NCBI GenBank assembly: GCA_021794075.1
Contig: JAJYRM010000034.1
Span: 1 to 37,481 of the forward strand
DNA length: 37,481 bases
From: Bacteroidota bacterium
GTDB lineage: Bacteria > Bacteroidota > Ignavibacteria > Kryptoniales > JAKASW01
Direction: 5' to 3'
Below, in pieces: positions 27,659 to 37,481 of the stretch. A model generated the notes under the pieces. The model did no database searches and was not told the DNA's origin. It saw only the letters and a list, made by a program, of their open reading frames with translations. Numbering within the stretch: the first letter of the stretch is position 1; every line of letters begins with the position of its first letter. A program made the translations under genes and the position numbers.

Positions 27659-28357
27659 CTAACCTCCATGTACATAGTTTACTTTGTCGTGATAGTTTGA
27701 TAGACAGGACCCAAACAGGTCAAGCACTCCACGCGCGAACGGATCGTCAAATTGAATTCTCTCAGGATGCCATTGTACCGAAACAATTCTGCTCGGCAAA
27801 TCATCGTTTCCCTCGATCGCCTCAACAGTCCCGTCTTCCGCTCTTGCGGCGACTCTCAGGCCGCTGCCTATCCTGTCCGCCGCCTGGTGGTGCGCACTAT
27901 TGACCTTCCCTGTCTCTTGTCTAATAAAATTCTTCAGATACGACCCTTCAATAAGCCTGACACCGTGATATCTGTCCTCGTCTTCTGAAATTGCCGAATG
28001 TTTCCTGCCATAGTATTTCTCCAGATCCAGTACCAGCGTGCCGCCGAAATACACATTCAGCACCTGTAGCCCCCTGCAAATTCCAAGTACGGGCAAACTC
28101 TTTTTCATCGCCAGATCGATAAGCTTGAATTCGACGCCATCGCGCGCGGAATCGACATGGACGGTCTCGTCCGGCCAGTCGCCGTACAACTCAGGAGCGA
28201 CATCTCCTCCGCCGGTCAGAACAAGCCCGTCGCAGTTTTCAATAGCGGACTCGGTGCCCTCTCCGACAACTATGACTTCGGCGCCCGGCAATTTGCTGAA
28301 GTATGCCCGATACCTGTCGTTCTTCTTCCCGCAGTCTGAAATAGCGATCTTATGCAT
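27659..28357 (-). CDS. Class I glutamine amidotransferase-like peptidase C26 (PuuD-like)
   Basis: 232 residues. The triad of class I amidotransferases is present: C94 in LGICRGLQVLN, H197 and E199 in VQWHPER. LVLTGGGDVAPELYGD and NSAHHQAADRIGSGL match the gamma-glutamyl-GABA hydrolase/PuuD group. Members cut gamma-glutamyl bonds; the natural substrate here is unknown. The gene overlaps lpxK by eight bases and ends three bases before the ppdK start, so its last codons contain the ppdK ribosome site. It is shorter at the N-terminus than many PuuD proteins. Confidence 0.82.
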   Translation of the reverse strand: MHKIAISDCGKKNDRYRAYFSKLPGAEVIVVGEGTESAIENCDGLVLTGGGDVAPELYGDWPDETVHVDSARDGVEFKLIDLAMKKSLPVLGICRGLQVLNVYFGGTLVLDLEKYYGRKHSAISEDEDRYHGVRLIEGSYLKNFIRQETGKVNSAHHQAADRIGSGLRVAARAEDGTVEAIEGNDDLPSRIVSVQWHPERIQFDDPFARGVLDLFGSCLSNYHDKVNYVHGG

Positions 28358-29402
28358 ACACTCTTCCGAAAACTCCTTCGAGAGCTTTCTCTAACTGCTC
28401 GCCACCGAATTCAATGATCGCCTTCTCGTTTAACGAATAGAGCCTACCGATGTCGTCGAGTTGCTTCAGCTCCTCATCCTGGAAAATGCGGACTGCATCC
28501 TTCGCGGTCGTCACGGCGATAATTTCATCCTCGCCTTCAAAGACACTGTCAATGTCATATTCGTCGTACCAATGATGGTCCGGAAAATGCCTCCGGGAAA
28601 CAACACCGGCGCACAATTGAGATATGTTCTCAAAAAACCGCTCAGGATGGGCAACGCCGCAAAAGGCAGCTACTTTTTTTTCGCGCAAAAAGTCAAGTGG
28701 GTAATGATTTCCCGCGTGATCCGAGAGATCTGAAGCGACAAAATTTACTCCCGCGACCGGCGCGTTCGAATACTTCCCAAGAAGCTGGTCGTAATCACGT
28801 TCAAAATCTGAAGCGCCGTGAGCTGTCAGCACGACGACGTCAGCCTCTTTTATCCTGCTTCTTGAGTCCCTAAGATTACCGGCGGGCAGGTAACTGTCGC
28901 GCAGGTCATAGAGGGAGCGGTTCATAAGAACAAAGTCGACATCGCGATGCAATTCTCTGTTCTGGAGGCCGTCATCGAGCACAAATATGTCGGCGCCAAA
29001 CTCTTTAATTACCACTTCACCGGCACGGTGGCGATCAGCATTAACCGCAACAGGCACGTCTGGAAATTTCATTGAAATAAGCGCGGGCTCGTCCCCCAGC
29101 ATTTGTACGTCAGGGTCGCTTCCGCGTTGTGGACAGGCGACGACGAGCTCGTCTGTTAGGCGCTTGTATCCACGCGTGAGAACCGCGGGTCTCTTCCCCA
29201 TCGCCAGCAATCTTTCAAGGACGAGCATAACGAACGGCGTCTTCCCTGAACCTCCGACTGAAATGTTTCCTACAGACACTACAGGTCTGGGAAGCTTCTT
29301 CACTTTGAAGAAACCGGCATCAAAGCCGTAATTGCGGACGGATACGATACCTCCATACAATGCGCTGAATGGAAGCAATATGGCCTTAAAATTCTTTCTC
29401 AT
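28350..29402 (-). CDS. lpxK: Tetraacyldisaccharide 4'-kinase
   Basis: 350 residues from the ATG at 29402, four bases after the lpxB stop; a GTG at 29417 overlapping lpxB is an alternative. An N-terminal helix (about residues 5-20, AILLPFSALYGGIVS) should dip into the inner membrane. The P-loop is VSVGNISVGGSGKTP, followed by LTRGYKR, GDEPALISMKFPDVPVAV, and VLDDGLQNRELHRDVDFVL. LpxK adds the 4'-phosphate to lipid A on the cytoplasmic face of the inner membrane. With lpxB immediately upstream it carries out consecutive lipid A steps. Confidence 0.94.
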   Translation of the reverse strand: MRKNFKAILLPFSALYGGIVSVRNYGFDAGFFKVKKLPRPVVSVGNISVGGSGKTPFVMLVLERLLAMGKRPAVLTRGYKRLTDELVVACPQRGSDPDVQMLGDEPALISMKFPDVPVAVNADRHRAGEVVIKEFGADIFVLDDGLQNRELHRDVDFVLMNRSLYDLRDSYLPAGNLRDSRSRIKEADVVVLTAHGASDFERDYDQLLGKYSNAPVAGVNFVASDLSDHAGNHYPLDFLREKKVAAFCGVAHPERFFENISQLCAGVVSRRHFPDHHWYDEYDIDSVFEGEDEIIAVTTAKDAVRIFQDEELKQLDDIGRLYSLNEKAIIEFGGEQLEKALEGVFGRVYA

Positions 29403-29406
29403 CGGA

Positions 29407-30546
29407 TCAGATCGCACCCAATATCAATTCTGCGGCGCGGTCAGAGGCTCCCTTCCCGCCAAGGATCGTTTTCAATTCAGAATACTTTTCCCTAATATCT
29501 GCCACCACCTGAGGCTCGGTAAGGATACCTTTAAGTAATCGTGCGGCTTTCAATGCCGAGAAATCATCCTGTATAAGTTCCTCGACTATTTTTTTTCCAG
29601 CCACGATATTCACGAGCGAGATGGAGTCGAGTCTAACGAGCATTCGGCCAATAATGTAATTGAGCCAGCTTGTCTTGTACACAACAATCATCGGGAGATC
29701 ATGGAGCGCCGCCTCCAGAGTAGAGGTCCCGCTTTTGATCATGCCCGCATCCGCCGAGCTCATAAGAAGGTCTGATTCATCTGTGAGCTGCACATTGACA
29801 CCCGAGTTCTTCACGATATTTTCGTAAACGTTCCTGTCGATTCCCGGGACGCGGCCGATAACAGCATCCAGGCTCTTCCCGATCGATGCCAATTCCTCTT
29901 TCAGGAACTCGACTGACTCGAGCATCGCGGGGAGAATGCGTCTGACCTCCTGCAGGCGACTTCCTGGCAGGAGAGCGAGCAGTTTCCCATCAGGTCGTGC
30001 CATATGCGCTTGCCTAAAGTTGTCGGTCTCAGGTTCCGAATGTTCAACCATCTCGTCTAGCAACGGATGTCCGACAAAATGCGCGTCCACACCTTCAATG
30101 AGGTACATATCTTCCTCAAACTTGAAGATTGTCAGCATCATGTCTACGGTCCGTCTGATCTTTTCGATTCTCCTCTTTCCCCATGCCCACACTTGCGGGC
30201 TTATGAAATAGATAACTTTTATGCCGCTCTTCCTTGCAAGACTGGCAAATCTAAGATTGAATCCCGGATAGTCGACTAAAATGACTGCCGTAGGCTTCTC
30301 GTCCTTTATAGTTTCCAGAAGATCGCGCCTCACCTTCCGAAGGAACGGGATCTTCGAGAGTATCTCCGTAAAACCCATCACCGACATTTCTCTGGCATGA
30401 TGGATCAGTTCGACACCGGCGGCTTCCATCTTATCCCCGCCGATCCCTATGACTCTTATTTCGCTTCTCTCCTTGAGACTCTTCACTAGCAGCGCCGCGT
30501 GCTTGTCACCCGAAGCTTCGCCCGCGACTATCATCACCGTTTTCAT
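29407..30546 (-). CDS. lpxB: Lipid-A-disaccharide synthase
   Basis: 379 residues from the ATG at 30546, which overlaps the stop of the upstream methyltransferase-like gene by four bases. The GT19 pattern is clear: MIVAGEASGDKHAALLVKSL, GIGGDKMEAAGVELIHHAREMSVMG, ILVDYPGFNLRFA, KVIYFISPQVWAWGKRRIEKI, HFVGHPLLDEM, LLALLPGSRLQEVRRILP and GTSTLEAALHDLPMIVVYKTS. It joins UDP-diacylglucosamine and lipid X at the inner membrane. lpxK follows four bases later. Confidence 0.96.
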   Translation of the reverse strand: MKTVMIVAGEASGDKHAALLVKSLKERSEIRVIGIGGDKMEAAGVELIHHAREMSVMGFTEILSKIPFLRKVRRDLLETIKDEKPTAVILVDYPGFNLRFASLARKSGIKVIYFISPQVWAWGKRRIEKIRRTVDMMLTIFKFEEDMYLIEGVDAHFVGHPLLDEMVEHSEPETDNFRQAHMARPDGKLLALLPGSRLQEVRRILPAMLESVEFLKEELASIGKSLDAVIGRVPGIDRNVYENIVKNSGVNVQLTDESDLLMSSADAGMIKSGTSTLEAALHDLPMIVVYKTSWLNYIIGRMLVRLDSISLVNIVAGKKIVEELIQDDFSALKAARLLKGILTEPQVVADIREKYSELKTILGGKGASDRAAELILGAI

Positions 30547-31163
30547 CGTAAGGCGCTCCGGAAAATGTATATCGCACATAACACGATGAATATCGAGGTT
30601 ATCGCTATGAGCGATGATCTTTCCGACCGCAGAGCGCGCGAGTAATTCGGCTTGAGCTCACGGTTTTCATTGAAGGCCTTGAGCCTTGGGATGAACTTGC
30701 CGACAACGGCTCTGTACTCGTTCCAGTTTGAAAACGTCCGCGCGAGATACTCTTCCTCGAGACTGACAATTCCTGTGTACTGAAATAGGAAGTAAGCCAG
30801 CGCGACCAGAGGGAGATAGGGCATAAGCGCGTTAGACATGACGCCAACTCCGACGTACATTAGAATATTTCCGACGTAAAGCGGATTCCTCACGTGAGAG
30901 TACGGACCGCTTGTAACGAGCTGTGTTCCGCCGACGGCGCCTGTCGTTCTGGTCTCGCTGCCGGCATACGACACGCCCCAGAACCTGATAGATTCTCCGA
31001 GGCCCGCCATCACAACTCCGATCACAATTGAAGTGAGCGTCGGCCTGGCAAAGATAAGCATAACGACGAGGAACGGGATGGGAGTATAGCTCCGATACGT
31101 AAAAAGGAAATTCCGCCAATCTCCCGAGTGTTTCTGTTTGCCGCTTGAAACGCTGTCAGTCAC
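30543..31163 (-). CDS. Isoprenylcysteine carboxyl methyltransferase-like membrane protein
   Basis: 206 residues from GTG at 31163, overlapping the HAD gene stop as GTGA. About five membrane helices. The ICMT/PEMT signature LVTSGPYSHVRNPLYVGNI is at about residues 82-101, with EEEYLARTFSNWNEYRAVVGKFIPR at about 138-162, which together bind SAM at the membrane face. Bacterial members methylate small lipophilic or quinone-like molecules or have no known substrate, and I assign none. It sits between a HAD phosphatase and lpxB in a tightly packed operon, which hints at a lipid or envelope role. Confidence 0.82.
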   Translation of the reverse strand: MTDSVSSGKQKHSGDWRNFLFTYRSYTPIPFLVVMLIFARPTLTSIVIGVVMAGLGESIRFWGVSYAGSETRTTGAVGGTQLVTSGPYSHVRNPLYVGNILMYVGVGVMSNALMPYLPLVALAYFLFQYTGIVSLEEEYLARTFSNWNEYRAVVGKFIPRLKAFNENRELKPNYSRALRSERSSLIAITSIFIVLCAIYIFRSALR

Positions 31164-31873
31164 TCTGTTAAATATGCCTCCCGACGTTTTAGTTCGGCGC
31201 GATGGCGCTTCCTGAAATTCCCGGAGGCCGCGACCTTTCTAAGTTTCGCCAGCACATCGTCAAAGCTCGCGAACGGGAAATAGGTAATATTGTTTTCCTC
31301 GCAGTATTTTAAAAGCTCATCTTTCGCGAAGATGATGTCGGCGTATTGGACCGCGCACCGGTCCGAAAAGCCATTGCCGATGTAGATGATAACGTCGTCT
31401 GGTCCCGTCTGTGTCAGGATCTGGTAACCTTTGCAGTTCGCGCATTTGGTGCAATCGGATTCGTAAGGACGCTCTATCTCAATCCGGATTGAATCGAACG
31501 TGGCGCGGTTCGAATAAATCGGGATGCCTGAAATCCCGTTCACATTCAGAATCTCGGTTATGTAGAAATCCAGCCCGTCGCTAAGTATCCTGACATCGAT
31601 CTCACTTTCATTACAAAATGAGAGGAAGGTCTTGAATGACTCATCTATTTCGCAGCGCCTTGCGAATTCAAAGGCCTCTTCGCGGGTCACTTTCACGAAG
31701 CTTGCCTCTCTCATAAGTAGATCTGAGCCGGAGAGAGTTCCGTCCTTCCATTTTTCGACCGCCTTCAGCGAATCTTCTTCGTTACCGAACTTCCGGAAAA
31801 ACATATCGCCTACGTCGACCTTCGTGATTGTCCCGTCAAAATCGACAAAGACCCTCGGCGTGAGACCTGTCAT
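31160..31873 (-). CDS. HAD-family phosphatase (MtnX/SerB-like)
   Basis: 237 residues from the ATG at 31873, which overlaps the smc stop as ATGA; an in-frame TTG at 31888 is a less likely start. The HAD motif 1 is VFVDFDGTITKVD (nucleophile D11, acid D13), motif 2 SDGLDFYI, and motif 3 IYIGNGFSDRCAV. The cap includes C141, C144 and C147 (C-x2-C-x2-C, CTKCANC), a possible metal site seen in MtnX-like phosphatases. Substrate unknown; MtnX acts on a methionine-salvage intermediate and SerB on phosphoserine, but no partner genes of either route are nearby. Confidence 0.83.
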   Translation of the reverse strand: MTGLTPRVFVDFDGTITKVDVGDMFFRKFGNEEDSLKAVEKWKDGTLSGSDLLMREASFVKVTREEAFEFARRCEIDESFKTFLSFCNESEIDVRILSDGLDFYITEILNVNGISGIPIYSNRATFDSIRIEIERPYESDCTKCANCKGYQILTQTGPDDVIIYIGNGFSDRCAVQYADIIFAKDELLKYCEENNITYFPFASFDDVLAKLRKVAASGNFRKRHRAELKRREAYLTE

Positions 31874-34800
31874 TGGTTCATCACCCAATCGTCCACGAAG
31901 CGTACAGCCACGACCTTTGACTCACCCTGCTCCTGCATCGTTACTCCGTAGAGGGTATCGGCGGCTTCCATCGTTCGTTTGTTGTGCGTAATGACTATGA
32001 ACTGCGTATCCGTCGAGAACTTTCTGATCATGCGCACATAATTGTCCGTGTTATTATCGTCAAGCGGCGCGTCCACTTCGTCAAGAATACAGAACGGGCT
32101 CGGCTTCACAAGGTAAATCGCGAAAAGCAGCGCGATGGCGGTAAGCGTCTTTTCACCCGCAGAAAGGAGATCTATGGACTGAGGCCGCTTGCCTGCGGGC
32201 TTGGCCATTATTTCTATTTTTGCTTCCAGAGGATCTACGTCCGGTTCTAGCTTGAGCTCGGATTCCCCGCCATTGAACAGGCTCTGGAACGTCGTCTTGA
32301 AATTCTCCGATATCTGCTCGAAGGTCTCAAGAAATTTCTGGTGAGCGGTATGATTGATCTCGTCGATGGTCTTCGTCAATGTCTTTTCCGCATCGAGGAG
32401 ATCGTTCCGCTGGGCGACAAGGAAATCGAATCGCTGCTTCTCTTCCGTGTATTCGGAAAACGCAACCAAGTTCACAGGCCCGAACGAGTCGACTCTTCCT
32501 CTCAGGTAGTTCACCCTTTCCCTGGCGGCGCCTATATCAAAGTCTGCCGGAATATTCATAGTCTCCGCGGTCTGAGCCGCTATGTCGAAGCTGAACTCCT
32601 CCTGCGCCCTCTCAACCAGGCTCTTCGCCTGCGCTTCAAGCTCGCCGATCTTAAGACTCACCTGATGAACGGCCTCGACTGCAGACTCGTGACTCGAACG
32701 GGCCATCTTGAGTTTCTTATCCTCGGAATCCTCCGAACGCTTCTTCTCTGAAAGGCGCGAGTTTAGCTCGGAGAGTTGTCCGTCAAGTCCGCCGATCTCT
32801 TCCTTGGTGTTTGTCCTCGATTCATCCAGCTCCTCCAACCTCTGCCGAAGCTGCTCTATGGTAACATTGGCGGAGTTGATGTCCTCTTCGGCTCTGGAAA
32901 TAGCTTCCAGGTTGGTGCTCACCTGTTCCTGGGAGGATTGAATTTCTCGTTTGAGGAAGTTGAGTTTGTTGATACACTCTATGTGTTTGGCCTGTGCTTC
33001 GCGGAGCCGCTCATTCCTGGAACGATATTCTTCCTCGATGATCTTCAATTCCTGGAGCGAAGCCTGATATTCGGTGTCCGAAGCACTCTTGATCGAGTTC
33101 AATTCGCCAAGCAGCGCCTCGGCTTTATCGAGTTCCTGCTGAGCTTCGATGACTTCAGTCTCGAGCTTCTGAATTCTCGCCTGGATGTCCGATATCTGTG
33201 TCTCAATGTTTTGTAGCGCGCGCTCGCTTTCGACGCTCGACTGCTCTATCCTGGCAAGCTGGAGCTCTAGGTCTCTAAGCTTCTCGTTACCCGACTTGAT
33301 GGGAAGCGAGTCCATCTCGGACTGGATTTTCGCGATAACCTCCTCAAGCCGAGAAAGATCGCCCGCGAGTCTTTCTTGTTCGCCCCTGAGTTCTTCGAGT
33401 TGTCGGAGTTTGCCTACCCTGCCGCCTTCAGTTCGCCGCGTGCTTCCGCCGCGTATTATTCCTTTGGCGGAGAAGACATCGCCGGTGAAGCTCACACAAA
33501 ACACGGATGGATCCGCATGCAATATCTTTTCGGCTTCGGAATACCCGTCAACGATCGCGACGTTCCCGAAGAAATGCTTTCCGATCGACTGATGTTCCGG
33601 CGCCATCTGGACATGATCGATGAGCTTCTTGAAAGACACGGGGCTTGGACGAAAATCGGATGAATGAACTTTGTCGAGGCAAACGAACGTAACCTTTCCG
33701 AGGTCCTTTGATCGCAGCGAATCGACGGCGCTGAGGGCGGTGTGCTCGTCCGGGGCAACCATGAAGTTCGAAGCCTCGCCGAGTATCGATTCCGCGGCAA
33801 TTCTGTATTCGGGTTCCACGTAAAAAATATCGCTGAGGATGTCGAACTTTGGGAGACCCTCGAGCTCTCCGCGAGCGAGAGCCTTTGCCCCGTCCGGGAC
33901 ACCTTCAAGGTGCTCGACCAGCCCGTTCAGAAAATCTATCCTTGCCTCGTTCGCCTGCATTGTGTCACGCAGGGTTTGAGCTTCCGACTTTTTCCGCTCG
34001 CTTTCGCTGAACAGCTCCTCCTTGTGCCTTTCCATGTCACTGAGCTTGGTCTTCTCGTCCTCGATCTCAGTGGAAAGTTGTTCCTTGTCTGTCCGCGCCT
34101 TTTCGAGCCTGGCAAGAAGGTTTGACTTTTCATTTTCAAGTTGACTCTTGCGCTGGAGTAGCTCGTCGCTATGGGAGCGGACACGCTCCAGGCGAGCATG
34201 AGCTCTCTCTCTTTCATTCTGCCTGAGAGCAAGGTCGTTCAGAATCTTTATCAGGCTTTCGTGGCTTGAATTCGACTTGTCCCTGGCGGTGAAGAGCTGC
34301 TTCTCGAAGTTTGAGAACGTCTCTCGTTCGGCAGCGAGGCTTTCGGACATGCTCTTTTCCTCGCCCTCGGTCTCGGCAAGACTCAGCTTCAGCTCTTCGA
34401 TCTGTGAAGCCAGAAGTTCGTTCCTTCCGCCGAGATCCACCTTGCGCTTCTCCAGCGCCGAGATATTGTCAGCGAGGCCTCTTTTTCTTTCAGTCAGAAC
34501 GGCGATTTCCTCTTCGACGCCATGAAGCTGACTCTGTTTTTCGGAACGCTGCTGTCGGACTGCCGATAGGCTCTTTTCGACCTCGGCTATCTCCGTGCGA
34601 ATCAAATTCAGAAGTTCTTCCTCATGGGACAGCGTGTTCAGCGCGTTCGTCTTGTCCGTTTCGTTCTGCGAGAGATTTTCCTTGAGCGGTCCTACTTTGC
34701 CGACTATGGAATGATACTCTGAATACAGGTACTGCCGTTCGAGTTGACCGAGCTCATCGACGAACCGCTTGTACTGCTCGGCTCTCTTCGCCTGTCGTTC

Positions 34801-35415
34801 CAGCGAGTTGACCTTCTTTTCAATTTCCGCGATGAGGTCGTTCACTCTGAGCAGATCGCGCTGTACGTCGCTCAGCTTGTTCAGTGCGGCACGCCTCCTC
34901 GCCTTGTACTTCGTCACCCCAGATGCTTCTTCGAACATCTTCCTTCGTTCGTCGGTGTTCTCCCGCAGGATATCTTCGACCATCTTCAGCTCTATGACGG
35001 AATACGCGGTCGCGGCCATGCCCGAATCCATAAGCATGTCCTGTATATCCTTCAGGCGGCACTGGTTCCTGTTGATAAAATACTCGCTCTCGCCCGAGCG
35101 GAACACTCTGCGCGTGATGCTGACTTCAGCGTATTCGACCGGAAGAAGTCCCTTGTCGTTCTTGATCGTTATCGAGACCTCGGCCATGCCGAGCGGTTTG
35201 CGCTTCTTGGAGCCGTTGAATATGACATTCTCCATCGAATCGCTTCTGAGCATACTGGTCCTTTGTTCTCCCAGTACCCAGCGAATCGAGTCAAGCACAT
35301 TAGTCTTCCCGCATCCGTTCGGCCCAACGATGGATGTAATGCCCCCGTTGAAAGTCAGCTCAGTCTTCGTGGCAAATGATTTGAATCCAAGCAACTCTAG
35401 TTTGGAAAGAAACAT
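31870..35415 (-). CDS. smc: Chromosome segregation ATPase SMC
   Basis: 1181 residues, standard length. The N-terminal head has Walker A GPNGCGKTN at residues 31-39 and KMVEDILRENTDERRKMFEEASGVTKYK; long coiled coils follow, broken by a globular hinge near 500-660 (EGVPDGAKALARGELEG, FVCLDKVHS). The C-terminal head has the ABC signature LLSAGEKTLTAIALLFAIYL, with Ala in place of the more usual Gly after LS, then Walker B FCILDEVDAPLDD. SMC dimers with ScpA/ScpB condense and separate chromosomes. The ATG abuts the stop of the upstream gene. Overlap with the HAD gene is four bases. Confidence 0.97.
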   Translation of the reverse strand: MFLSKLELLGFKSFATKTELTFNGGITSIVGPNGCGKTNVLDSIRWVLGEQRTSMLRSDSMENVIFNGSKKRKPLGMAEVSITIKNDKGLLPVEYAEVSITRRVFRSGESEYFINRNQCRLKDIQDMLMDSGMAATAYSVIELKMVEDILRENTDERRKMFEEASGVTKYKARRRAALNKLSDVQRDLLRVNDLIAEIEKKVNSLERQAKRAEQYKRFVDELGQLERQYLYSEYHSIVGKVGPLKENLSQNETDKTNALNTLSHEEELLNLIRTEIAEVEKSLSAVRQQRSEKQSQLHGVEEEIAVLTERKRGLADNISALEKRKVDLGGRNELLASQIEELKLSLAETEGEEKSMSESLAAERETFSNFEKQLFTARDKSNSSHESLIKILNDLALRQNERERAHARLERVRSHSDELLQRKSQLENEKSNLLARLEKARTDKEQLSTEIEDEKTKLSDMERHKEELFSESERKKSEAQTLRDTMQANEARIDFLNGLVEHLEGVPDGAKALARGELEGLPKFDILSDIFYVEPEYRIAAESILGEASNFMVAPDEHTALSAVDSLRSKDLGKVTFVCLDKVHSSDFRPSPVSFKKLIDHVQMAPEHQSIGKHFFGNVAIVDGYSEAEKILHADPSVFCVSFTGDVFSAKGIIRGGSTRRTEGGRVGKLRQLEELRGEQERLAGDLSRLEEVIAKIQSEMDSLPIKSGNEKLRDLELQLARIEQSSVESERALQNIETQISDIQARIQKLETEVIEAQQELDKAEALLGELNSIKSASDTEYQASLQELKIIEEEYRSRNERLREAQAKHIECINKLNFLKREIQSSQEQVSTNLEAISRAEEDINSANVTIEQLRQRLEELDESRTNTKEEIGGLDGQLSELNSRLSEKKRSEDSEDKKLKMARSSHESAVEAVHQVSLKIGELEAQAKSLVERAQEEFSFDIAAQTAETMNIPADFDIGAARERVNYLRGRVDSFGPVNLVAFSEYTEEKQRFDFLVAQRNDLLDAEKTLTKTIDEINHTAHQKFLETFEQISENFKTTFQSLFNGGESELKLEPDVDPLEAKIEIMAKPAGKRPQSIDLLSAGEKTLTAIALLFAIYLVKPSPFCILDEVDAPLDDNNTDNYVRMIRKFSTDTQFIVITHNKRTMEAADTLYGVTMQEQGESKVVAVRFVDDWVMNQ

Positions 35416-37481
35416 TTACGTTACTCTGCTTTCAACTATGAATTTGTAGAAAAACTTCGCGTAAGCGATCAATCCGTCAGTTCCGTTAAAATAGAATGTG
35501 GCTATGAAAACCAGAGCTATAAGAATCAAAGAGCCGATAATCCCGACTCGAATAGTGGGCAGATCATAAATCACGCCTATACCGTGGAACAACCTGAAAA
35601 GACTTAGCAGCAGGAGAGCCACAAAAATCACAGCCGCGGCCCAAACGAACCTTGGATCACCAAGCAATCTGAAAAGTATCATATCCACAAGAATCAACGC
35701 TGCCATCGGAAGCACCGACCAGGTGGCAACAGTGAAAGCGCTCACCATCTGCAACCTTATTTTCACTGCAAAGGAGAATAGCTTTATTATCAACGTGATG
35801 ATCGCGATCAAGACCATGAACAGAACGGTGAAGGCAATTATAAAGCTGACCGGATGCCAGATGAGATAGTCGATCCTGATCTTAAGGAAATCACCCGGGA
35901 TGATCAGACCGAGCATCCTATCGAAGACGTAATTATCCTTGAAGGCGTATACAAGGCTGGAAAGGTATATAGCTATTCCACCGGATACCAATAAAAGCAC
36001 GGTTGTTGTCTGAAAAGCCGATATCATCCGCTGGTCGCGGATATCTGCAAAGAAATTGTACGGACGAAATACCGCGCGAGTCGCACTTTCCCTGAACCAG
36101 CGACGGCTGTAGTGAAGATAGGTTATTAAAACCAGCAGAAGCGTCGATAATATCACGAAGATGATGGGCGGAGTGTCCGAATAATTTCCGATCGGAAGAG
36201 TAGGAAGCGTCTCATCGTTGAAGAGAGCTCTAACCGCGGCGAATGACGGACGCTTCTCCCGCCAATAACTGACAAGCCCGTAAGTGTAAAGGTATGGATG
36301 ACCATTCTGAAGGAGATGCGGAACCGCGCCCTTCCAGTCGGAGTAGCTGTTTACTGATATTCCCGCAAAGTTACCATGCTCAACCGCTTCGTAGGCATCT
36401 ACAAGATATCTCGCCTGGTGTTCAAGTGAGAGCGGGTCTGAATACCCGTTGTGATTTCTCATCTGAGTCTGGGTCCCGACCGACGAAATCCAGTACGTCA
36501 GCCCTCCGGATGAAGCGACAGAAATTTCGGCGAGAAAATTCTTGAGCTTGCTTGAAGAGTTGAAAGGAGACAAATCCAGCCCAACGAAATCGGCGGCCGT
36601 GGTCATCGTGTCGGCCATACCGGTAAGCGGGGTATAGTAAAGAAGTTTGTCCGTTTCTTTGTGGACAATTGAAGCAGCGGCAGCAATATAGTTGCGGGTC
36701 GCGGCAGCCGTTGGGTCAAGGTTGCTTCCCGCCGAGATCGCCACGACGGAAGGATGCGAGCAAGTATTCTGGACAACTTCCTGGAGATAACCCTGCAGGG
36801 AGCTTCGGTACCTTTCCGATCCAAGGACAGGCGCGGGCGCATCGACGAGCGGCACCTCTTCGAATACCATCAGTCCGAAACGATCACAGAGATCAAGCAA
36901 CCCCTGCGAAGGAGGATACGCGACGACCCGGATTGCATTCGCGCCCAGAGTCTTTATGACCGCGACATCCTTTTCCAACTGGACCTCGCTTACCGCCGCA
37001 CCGACTCCCGGATAGTCGGCGGTATAATTCACGCTCTTCACGAATGTCGATTGGCCGTTCAGGTAGAACCGGCCATCCGAAACCGTCATAGTCCTGAATC
37101 CCAAATTCTGAGAGTATTGATCCAGCATCGTCTTACCACTGTAGACGAAGTACTCGATCGAGTAGAGATTGGGATGCGAAGGCGACCATAGGTTCGGATT
37201 CTGAACGGTGAGCGAAAGATTTATCTTGACGTTATGGTTTTGGGTAAGATCAAAGTTCACATCCGCTGACTTTGCCACGACGTTGCCCGTCGATTTATCG
37301 ACGAGGGTCGCGCGCGCGATAAGCGGTATAGTAGTCGCGCCTGAGTCTATCCCGTATCTGGAATAATCTGCCGCATACACGATGAAGTTGCTCTCCACAT
37401 TCGCAGCCGTGTTGGACGAGTTGAGCTGTATCTTGAACGTGGGATGATCGATATAGACGGGAGGCCTGACTTCGAGATAAA
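35416..37481 (-). CDS. GH2-like protein without catalytic glutamates, fused to a C-terminal membrane domain (5' end cut)
   Basis: The frame stays open past base 37481, so the start is outside; at least 687 residues are visible. The visible part begins in a GH2 Ig-like domain (LWSPSHPNLYSIEY, GFRTMTVSDGRFYLNGQ) followed by a TIM-barrel-like domain (SVNYTADYPGVGAAVSEVQ, LGANAIRVVAYPPSQGLLDLCDRFGLMVFEEVPL). The acid/base position GNE reads GSN (Asn codon at 36721-36723) and the nucleophile position TEFG reads SSVG (Ser codon at 36481-36483). Six membrane helices follow in the last 250 residues (IIFVILSTLLLVLITYL, TTVLLLVSGGIAIYLSSL and others). The globular part probably lies in the periplasm and may bind glycans rather than cut them. 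It is translated just before smc. Confidence 0.8.
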   Translation of the reverse strand, partial: YLEVRPPVYIDHPTFKIQLNSSNTAANVESNFIVYAADYSRYGIDSGATTIPLIARATLVDKSTGNVVAKSADVNFDLTQNHNVKINLSLTVQNPNLWSPSHPNLYSIEYFVYSGKTMLDQYSQNLGFRTMTVSDGRFYLNGQSTFVKSVNYTADYPGVGAAVSEVQLEKDVAVIKTLGANAIRVVAYPPSQGLLDLCDRFGLMVFEEVPLVDAPAPVLGSERYRSSLQGYLQEVVQNTCSHPSVVAISAGSNLDPTAAATRNYIAAAASIVHKETDKLLYYTPLTGMADTMTTAADFVGLDLSPFNSSSKLKNFLAEISVASSGGLTYWISSVGTQTQMRNHNGYSDPLSLEHQARYLVDAYEAVEHGNFAGISVNSYSDWKGAVPHLLQNGHPYLYTYGLVSYWREKRPSFAAVRALFNDETLPTLPIGNYSDTPPIIFVILSTLLLVLITYLHYSRRWFRESATRAVFRPYNFFADIRDQRMISAFQTTTVLLLVSGGIAIYLSSLVYAFKDNYVFDRMLGLIIPGDFLKIRIDYLIWHPVSFIIAFTVLFMVLIAIITLIIKLFSFAVKIRLQMVSAFTVATWSVLPMAALILVDMILFRLLGDPRFVWAAAVIFVALLLLSLFRLFHGIGVIYDLPTIRVGIIGSLILIALVFIATFYFNGTDGLIAYAKFFYKFIVESRVT

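Follow-up and report, generated by a model that had tools for sequence, protein, structure and literature searches.

Our analysis concerned the end of a 37,481 nucleotide stretch of DNA from a Bacteroidota bacterium (hereafter the window), which is the entire contig C39 of a 4.5 Mb genome bin (G000). This end carries the 3′ part of a gene for a GH2-type glycosidase ectodomain followed by a putative Yip1 membrane domain, here called GH2-Yip1. As the first-pass annotation had stated, the gene lies directly before smc, its TAA stop codon adjoining the smc ATG with a gap of zero bases. The genes and features, all on the minus strand, are the following:

28350..29417, minus strand: lpxK, lipid A 4′-kinase (276.3 bits)
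29407..30579, minus strand: lpxB, lipid A disaccharide synthase (304.8 bits)
30543..31163, minus strand: PEMT/ICMT-type methyltransferase (domain match and gene-neighbour comparison)
31160..31888, minus strand: HAD-type phosphatase, next in the gene string, adjoining smc in many relatives too
31870..35415, minus strand: smc (PF02463, 228 bits; SMC_hinge, 63.9 bits)
35416..37479, minus strand: GH2-Yip1 gene, 3′ part, 687 codons, an open frame running off the contig end
35488..36066, minus strand: putative Yip1 domain, juxtamembrane segment and five helices (PF04893 matches in family members)
36028..36105, minus strand: juxtamembrane loop RRWFRESATRAVFRPYNFFADIRDQR, presumably cytosolic, one of the family's best-conserved segments
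36115..36171, minus strand: first membrane helix, linking the ectodomain to the Yip1 domain (helix prediction, L121 model)
36211..37068, minus strand: predicted GH2 TIM barrel with pseudo-active site (PF02836, 58.2 bits; L121 model)
36415..36450, minus strand: family signature NGYSDPLSLEHQ, just after the nucleophile strand (family alignment, 163 members)
36481..36483, minus strand: codon TCG for Ser333 in the nucleophile Glu column (MAFFT, profile-profile alignment)
36721..36723, minus strand: codon AAC for Asn253 in the acid/base Glu column (MAFFT, phmmer, profile-profile alignment)
37069..37479, minus strand: predicted end of the jelly roll and GH2 Ig-like domain (PF00703, 47.7 bits; L121 model)

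The upstream sequence that the first-pass annotation had called for was recovered from the same bin, where contig C153 (3630 bp) holds the missing 5′ part of the gene (L003:2253-3629). C153 (L003:2800-3630) overlaps with window positions 36651-37481 over 831 bp at 97% identity and is thus taken to be a strain variant. It adds the signal peptide and the remaining part of the GH2 jelly roll, giving a complete protein of about 869 amino acids, and full-length relatives within the genus have 863-869 amino acids. The bin therefore contains a second partial copy of the gene on C153, which looks like strain heterogeneity. Patatin and polyprenyl synthetase genes precede the GH2-Yip1 gene on C153 and were dismissed as partners because their occurrence at this place is restricted to the window's own genus.

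Both GH2 Pfam domains of the window protein score above their cut-offs. An AlphaFold2 run on L121, a full-length homologue with 90% identity, together with 70 relatives gave a model with a pLDDT of 88.5 and a pTM of 0.83, and residues 49-613 of this model align with 3cmg at Z 37.5 and an rmsd of 2.3 Å over 539 residues. Foldseek and VIA-align both retrieve GH2 beta-glucuronidases and beta-galactosidases for the model. Judged by domain matches and model, the ectodomain is thus of the GH2-type fold, with jelly roll, Ig-like domain and TIM barrel, and the modelling proposed in the first-pass annotation bears out its view of a GH2-like frame. The HPSVVAIS strand and the HQARYLVDAYEAVEH helix are GH2-like, as it had said; the family's own signature is instead NGYSDPxSxEAQ, which is near-invariant among 163 members (Gly 100%, Ser 99%, Gln 98%) and without conservation in canonical GH2 proteins. 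GH2 beta-glucuronidases and beta-galactosidases (3cmg/5z1a, 8dhe and E. coli GUS, 3k46) have the same domain order as the model (Z about 35-37, rmsd about 2.3 Å over about 520-540 residues) and share the HPSV strand and GH2 core residues with the window protein. Unlike these enzymes, however, the window protein has Asn and Ser in place of the catalytic glutamates, a predicted Yip1 anchor and the NGYSDPxSxEAQ loop.

The replacement of both catalytic residues, proposed from the window alone, was supported by independent alignments. At the acid/base site at the end of strand 4, the window protein has Ser-Asn where GH2 enzymes have the Asn-Glu ("NE") pair, and at the nucleophile site at the end of strand 7, Ser333 replaces the glutamate. 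A MAFFT alignment that included 12 canonical GH2 proteins from the same bacterial group and a profile-profile alignment built without the intact members of the family agree on both columns; a phmmer alignment with PDB 6d1p covers the acid/base site only and agrees there. A barrel without acid/base and nucleophile cannot perform the double-displacement mechanism of GH2. Among the 163 aligned members, not all of which are separate species since some metagenome-assembled genomes (MAGs) are present as two loci, 117 have neither glutamate, 26 the acid/base only, 14 the nucleophile only and six both. All 13 species of the window's genus that we examined lack both, and the Asn and His that go with these glutamates in the GH2 pocket have changed too. 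Across the family, the nucleophile column varies among S, R, K, A, G and N while structural residues are fixed.

The rest of the protein contains six predicted hydrophobic helices (approximately residues 437-455, 486-512, 547-572, 587-606, 611-630 and 644-664), in agreement with the about six membrane helices noted initially. That this part is foreign to normal GH2 proteins stands; it is, however, recognizable by profile matches as a Yip1 domain. PF04893 matched 47 of 65 members (E<=1, best E 8.6e-8), and its cut-off of 28.6 bits was exceeded by members including G005 from the window's own genus (29.6), G083 (39.3), G088 (33.6) and G077 (32.6), with L121 below it at 16.8 bits. DUF4271 was considered as an alternative identity, but it gave weak matches in only seven of 65 members, and Yip1 is therefore preferred. 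Five predicted membrane helices follow a conserved segment whose cytosolic side we assign from the signal peptide and positive charges. The juxtamembrane loop had the highest mean conservation among the segments compared, and invariant Arg, Asp, Asn and Trp residues occur in the loop and the helices. Folded separately, the membrane module reached a pLDDT of 89.6, and searches of the PDB by sequence and by fold returned no significant match for it, the top hits being unrelated helical proteins.

A search for homologues with the same membrane tail, as the first-pass annotation had suggested, revealed a family of hundreds, of which the linkage to smc is a characteristic trait. Matches were found in 95 of 100 related genomes (a stratified draw, the genome-by-genome search covering one phylum), nearly all of them to the GH2-Yip1 protein or a part of it. 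A contig scan yielded 353 relatives, and the 80 that were listed include MAGs of Candidatus Kryptoniota, Kryptonia, Ignavibacteria and Kapaibacterium (Bacteroidota/Chlorobi group); the viral contigs searched contained no relative. Reduced forms occur as well. Three loci that belong to other families of this phylum (L238:4068-5810, L239:3134-4720 and L240:4479-6680) encode a degenerate TIM barrel with Yip1, without jelly roll and Ig-like domain; for L238 and L240, smc is on a different contig of the genome. In family f11 (L090:5902-6663, L091:5842-6723 and L093:5866-6726) the GH2 ectodomain is wholly lost and a Yip1 protein of 254-294 amino acids remains, its gene located 76-134 bp before smc. 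In a single-contig genome (G044; L092:5266-8051) the GH2-Yip1 gene is broken up, its frames measuring 569, 424 and 201 amino acids; in L242, from the same genus, it is whole, so that L092 represents either a frameshifted gene or sequencing errors.

In 71 of 84 judgeable genomes of the class, smc follows directly downstream on the same strand with a median gap of 9 bp (-1 to about 25 bp in most of the 71). Other families of the phylum supplied 14 full-length loci, every one with the same order and with gaps, taken from coordinates, of about 4 to 380 bp. After smc, lpxB and lpxK occur in the window and at four of these 14 loci, and many members of the class have the HAD phosphatase and the PEMT/ICMT-type gene between smc and lpxB/lpxK. 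Among 15 genomes of the phylum drawn for the absence of the pair, the gene before smc is variable, and no relative of GH2-Yip1 was found there. The pair is broken, with other genes adjoining, in family f15, most of f5, f8, f16, f19 and some MAGs. The f15 loci (L050, L053, L056, L058, L060 and L064) have the gene away from smc, before a gene string that we take, from sequence recognition, to be hrcA-grpE-dnaJ, and a large gene of about 1,400 codons lies beside it on the opposite strand. The linkage to smc is one of the strongest regularities that we found; taken alone, it argues for co-expression and nothing further.

All six members with both glutamates belong to Kryptonia (family f2; L017-L022), with the motifs WGIGNEFDS and ISEYG, and their N-terminal leader, ectodomain and membrane domain are the same as in the rest of the family. 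In trees of the whole protein, of the GH2 part and of the membrane domain, built quickly under a simple model, Kryptonia is nested within the family and not basal. Because these members combine both glutamates with the same architecture and a nested position, the scaffold appears to predate the loss of catalysis; the GH2-Yip1 fusion is, on this comparison, probably the older event. This contradicts the initial idea that the membrane helices were gained along with the catalytic loss. The simplest reading would be that catalysis was lost repeatedly from an active GH2 protein that was already membrane-bound, and parsimony counts 12 changes in catalytic state, among which loss and regain are not distinguishable. 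A swap of a foreign active GH2 domain into Kryptonia was also considered and found unsupported, since Kryptonia falls inside the family in the GH2-only and membrane-domain trees. The first-pass annotation had named homologues with intact catalytic residues as evidence against its view; such homologues do exist in Kryptonia, but the window protein is not thereby active. The Kryptonia members themselves may still be enzymes, and L017-L022 are candidates for a membrane-bound active GH2.

Compared with its two nearest species, the window protein has dN/dS ratios of 0.048 and 0.035, the lowest values being those of the barrel (0.03-0.05) and the membrane part (0.02-0.03); these ratios are approximate because synonymous sites are near saturation. 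With ratios of 0.03-0.05 and a protein kept in nearly every relative, the claim that the gene is not decaying holds. The loss of both residues, the variable columns, the conserved new loop and the strong selection together point to a non-hydrolytic binding domain, and binding or sensing at the cell envelope, not the cutting of sugars, is probably its role. On balance we favour the reading that the protein serves in the inner membrane as a receptor or scaffold, with a pseudo-glycosidase ectodomain that binds and does not hydrolyse. The N-terminal signal peptide would export the complete GH2 ectodomain to the periplasm, and the joining helix with the five-helix Yip1 module would anchor it in the inner membrane. 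The former catalytic face, with the NGYSDPxSxEAQ loop beside the lost nucleophile, may hold a ligand, for which an envelope glycan, a lipid-linked sugar or a partner protein are candidates. Through its conserved cytosolic loop RPYNFFADIRDQR, the Yip1 module might then relay the binding to a partner at the cytosolic face, or position that partner. What the analysis itself establishes is the domain architecture, the residue loss, the fold of the close homologue L121, the purifying selection, the wide distribution and the linkage to smc; this topology, as well as ligand binding, signalling or scaffolding and any link to SMC or to LPS synthesis, we infer. Some points argue against this reading. 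The drift of the pocket between lineages suits a conserved sugar ligand poorly and would be explained by a purely structural ectodomain too, some lineages do without jelly roll and Ig-like domain or without the whole ectodomain, and the Kryptonia proteins may still be active.

In a less probable yet serious alternative, the Yip1 module would do the work, as a channel, a transporter or in lipid handling, and the dead GH2 ectodomain would be ancillary and mostly structural, by analogy with the heavy chains 4F2hc and rBAT. Yip1 is the sole part common to the full-length, TIM-Yip1 (L238-L240) and Yip1-only (L090, L091 and L093) forms, and this shared minimum leaves room for a working module that the ectodomain assists. 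The Yip1-only form is still found directly before smc, the invariant residues lie in the loop and helices, and the pocket residues drift. However, purifying selection on the barrel is almost as strong as on the membrane part, and the loop motif where catalysis once took place is near-invariant, both of which suggest that the barrel has a role of its own. At the other extreme, gene decay or a faulty assembly might be suspected from a gene that stops at the contig end and has a 97% identical partial copy on a second contig of the bin, but other species of the genus have the homologue intact, purifying selection is strong and stops are lacking, which makes this explanation practically negligible.

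The adjacency to smc, found in 71 of 84 genomes of the class, at 14 of 14 loci from other families and for the Yip1-only form, raises the idea that the protein is an envelope-side partner of the SMC condensin, which it might anchor, or to which it might report the envelope state through the conserved cytosolic loop. The variable gene before smc in phylum members without the pair fits this idea. Adjacency may, however, reflect operon structure only, smc being itself followed by lpxB, lpxK and further genes, and the pair is broken in the families named above, so that we regard such a partnership as doubtful. Equally doubtful is its more specific form, in which the dead glycosidase on its Yip1 anchor would be a dedicated, co-translated partner of the SMC condensin, coupling chromosome organization to envelope state in this Bacteroidota/Chlorobi branch; if true, this would for the first time give a function to a Yip1 protein of prokaryotes. 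Still harder to credit is that the window protein remains enzymatically active, through unusual catalytic residues or on another substrate. It retains the fold and the general layout of the pocket, Kryptonia has both glutamates and several lineages have one of them, but both are gone in all 13 species examined in the genus, the pocket Asn and His have changed, and the catalytic columns hold chemically unrelated residues across the family.

The favoured receptor or scaffold has a partial likeness in 4F2hc (SLC3A2) and rBAT, where a glycosidase fold on a membrane protein is an ancillary or binding part; their ectodomains, seated on membrane partners, have been called "fake or orphan" glycosidases (PMC8537225). 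They differ from GH2-Yip1 in being GH13 proteins of animals, with one membrane helix and a separate transporter partner. In the open-licence literature, we found no paper on the GH2-Yip1 protein or on its linkage to smc; inactive glycosidase-like proteins are known, but we found no description of one that is near-universal across a class and beyond, fused to Yip1 and tied to smc. Domain-based annotation likely labels GH2-Yip1 genes as glycoside hydrolases, and GH2 enzymes would thereby be overcounted in these groups. With the Yip1 proteins (PF04893), both the eukaryotic YIPF and the stand-alone bacterial and archaeal ones, GH2-Yip1 has the predicted five-helix membrane module in common; unlike them, it has an extra helix and the GH2 ectodomain in front and its own conserved loop. 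No function has been reported for prokaryotic Yip1 proteins, a membrane receptor being among the proposals (PMC6682643). The window's own genome also encodes two adjoining stand-alone Yip1 proteins of 258 amino acids each (G000:C77:71826-73325).
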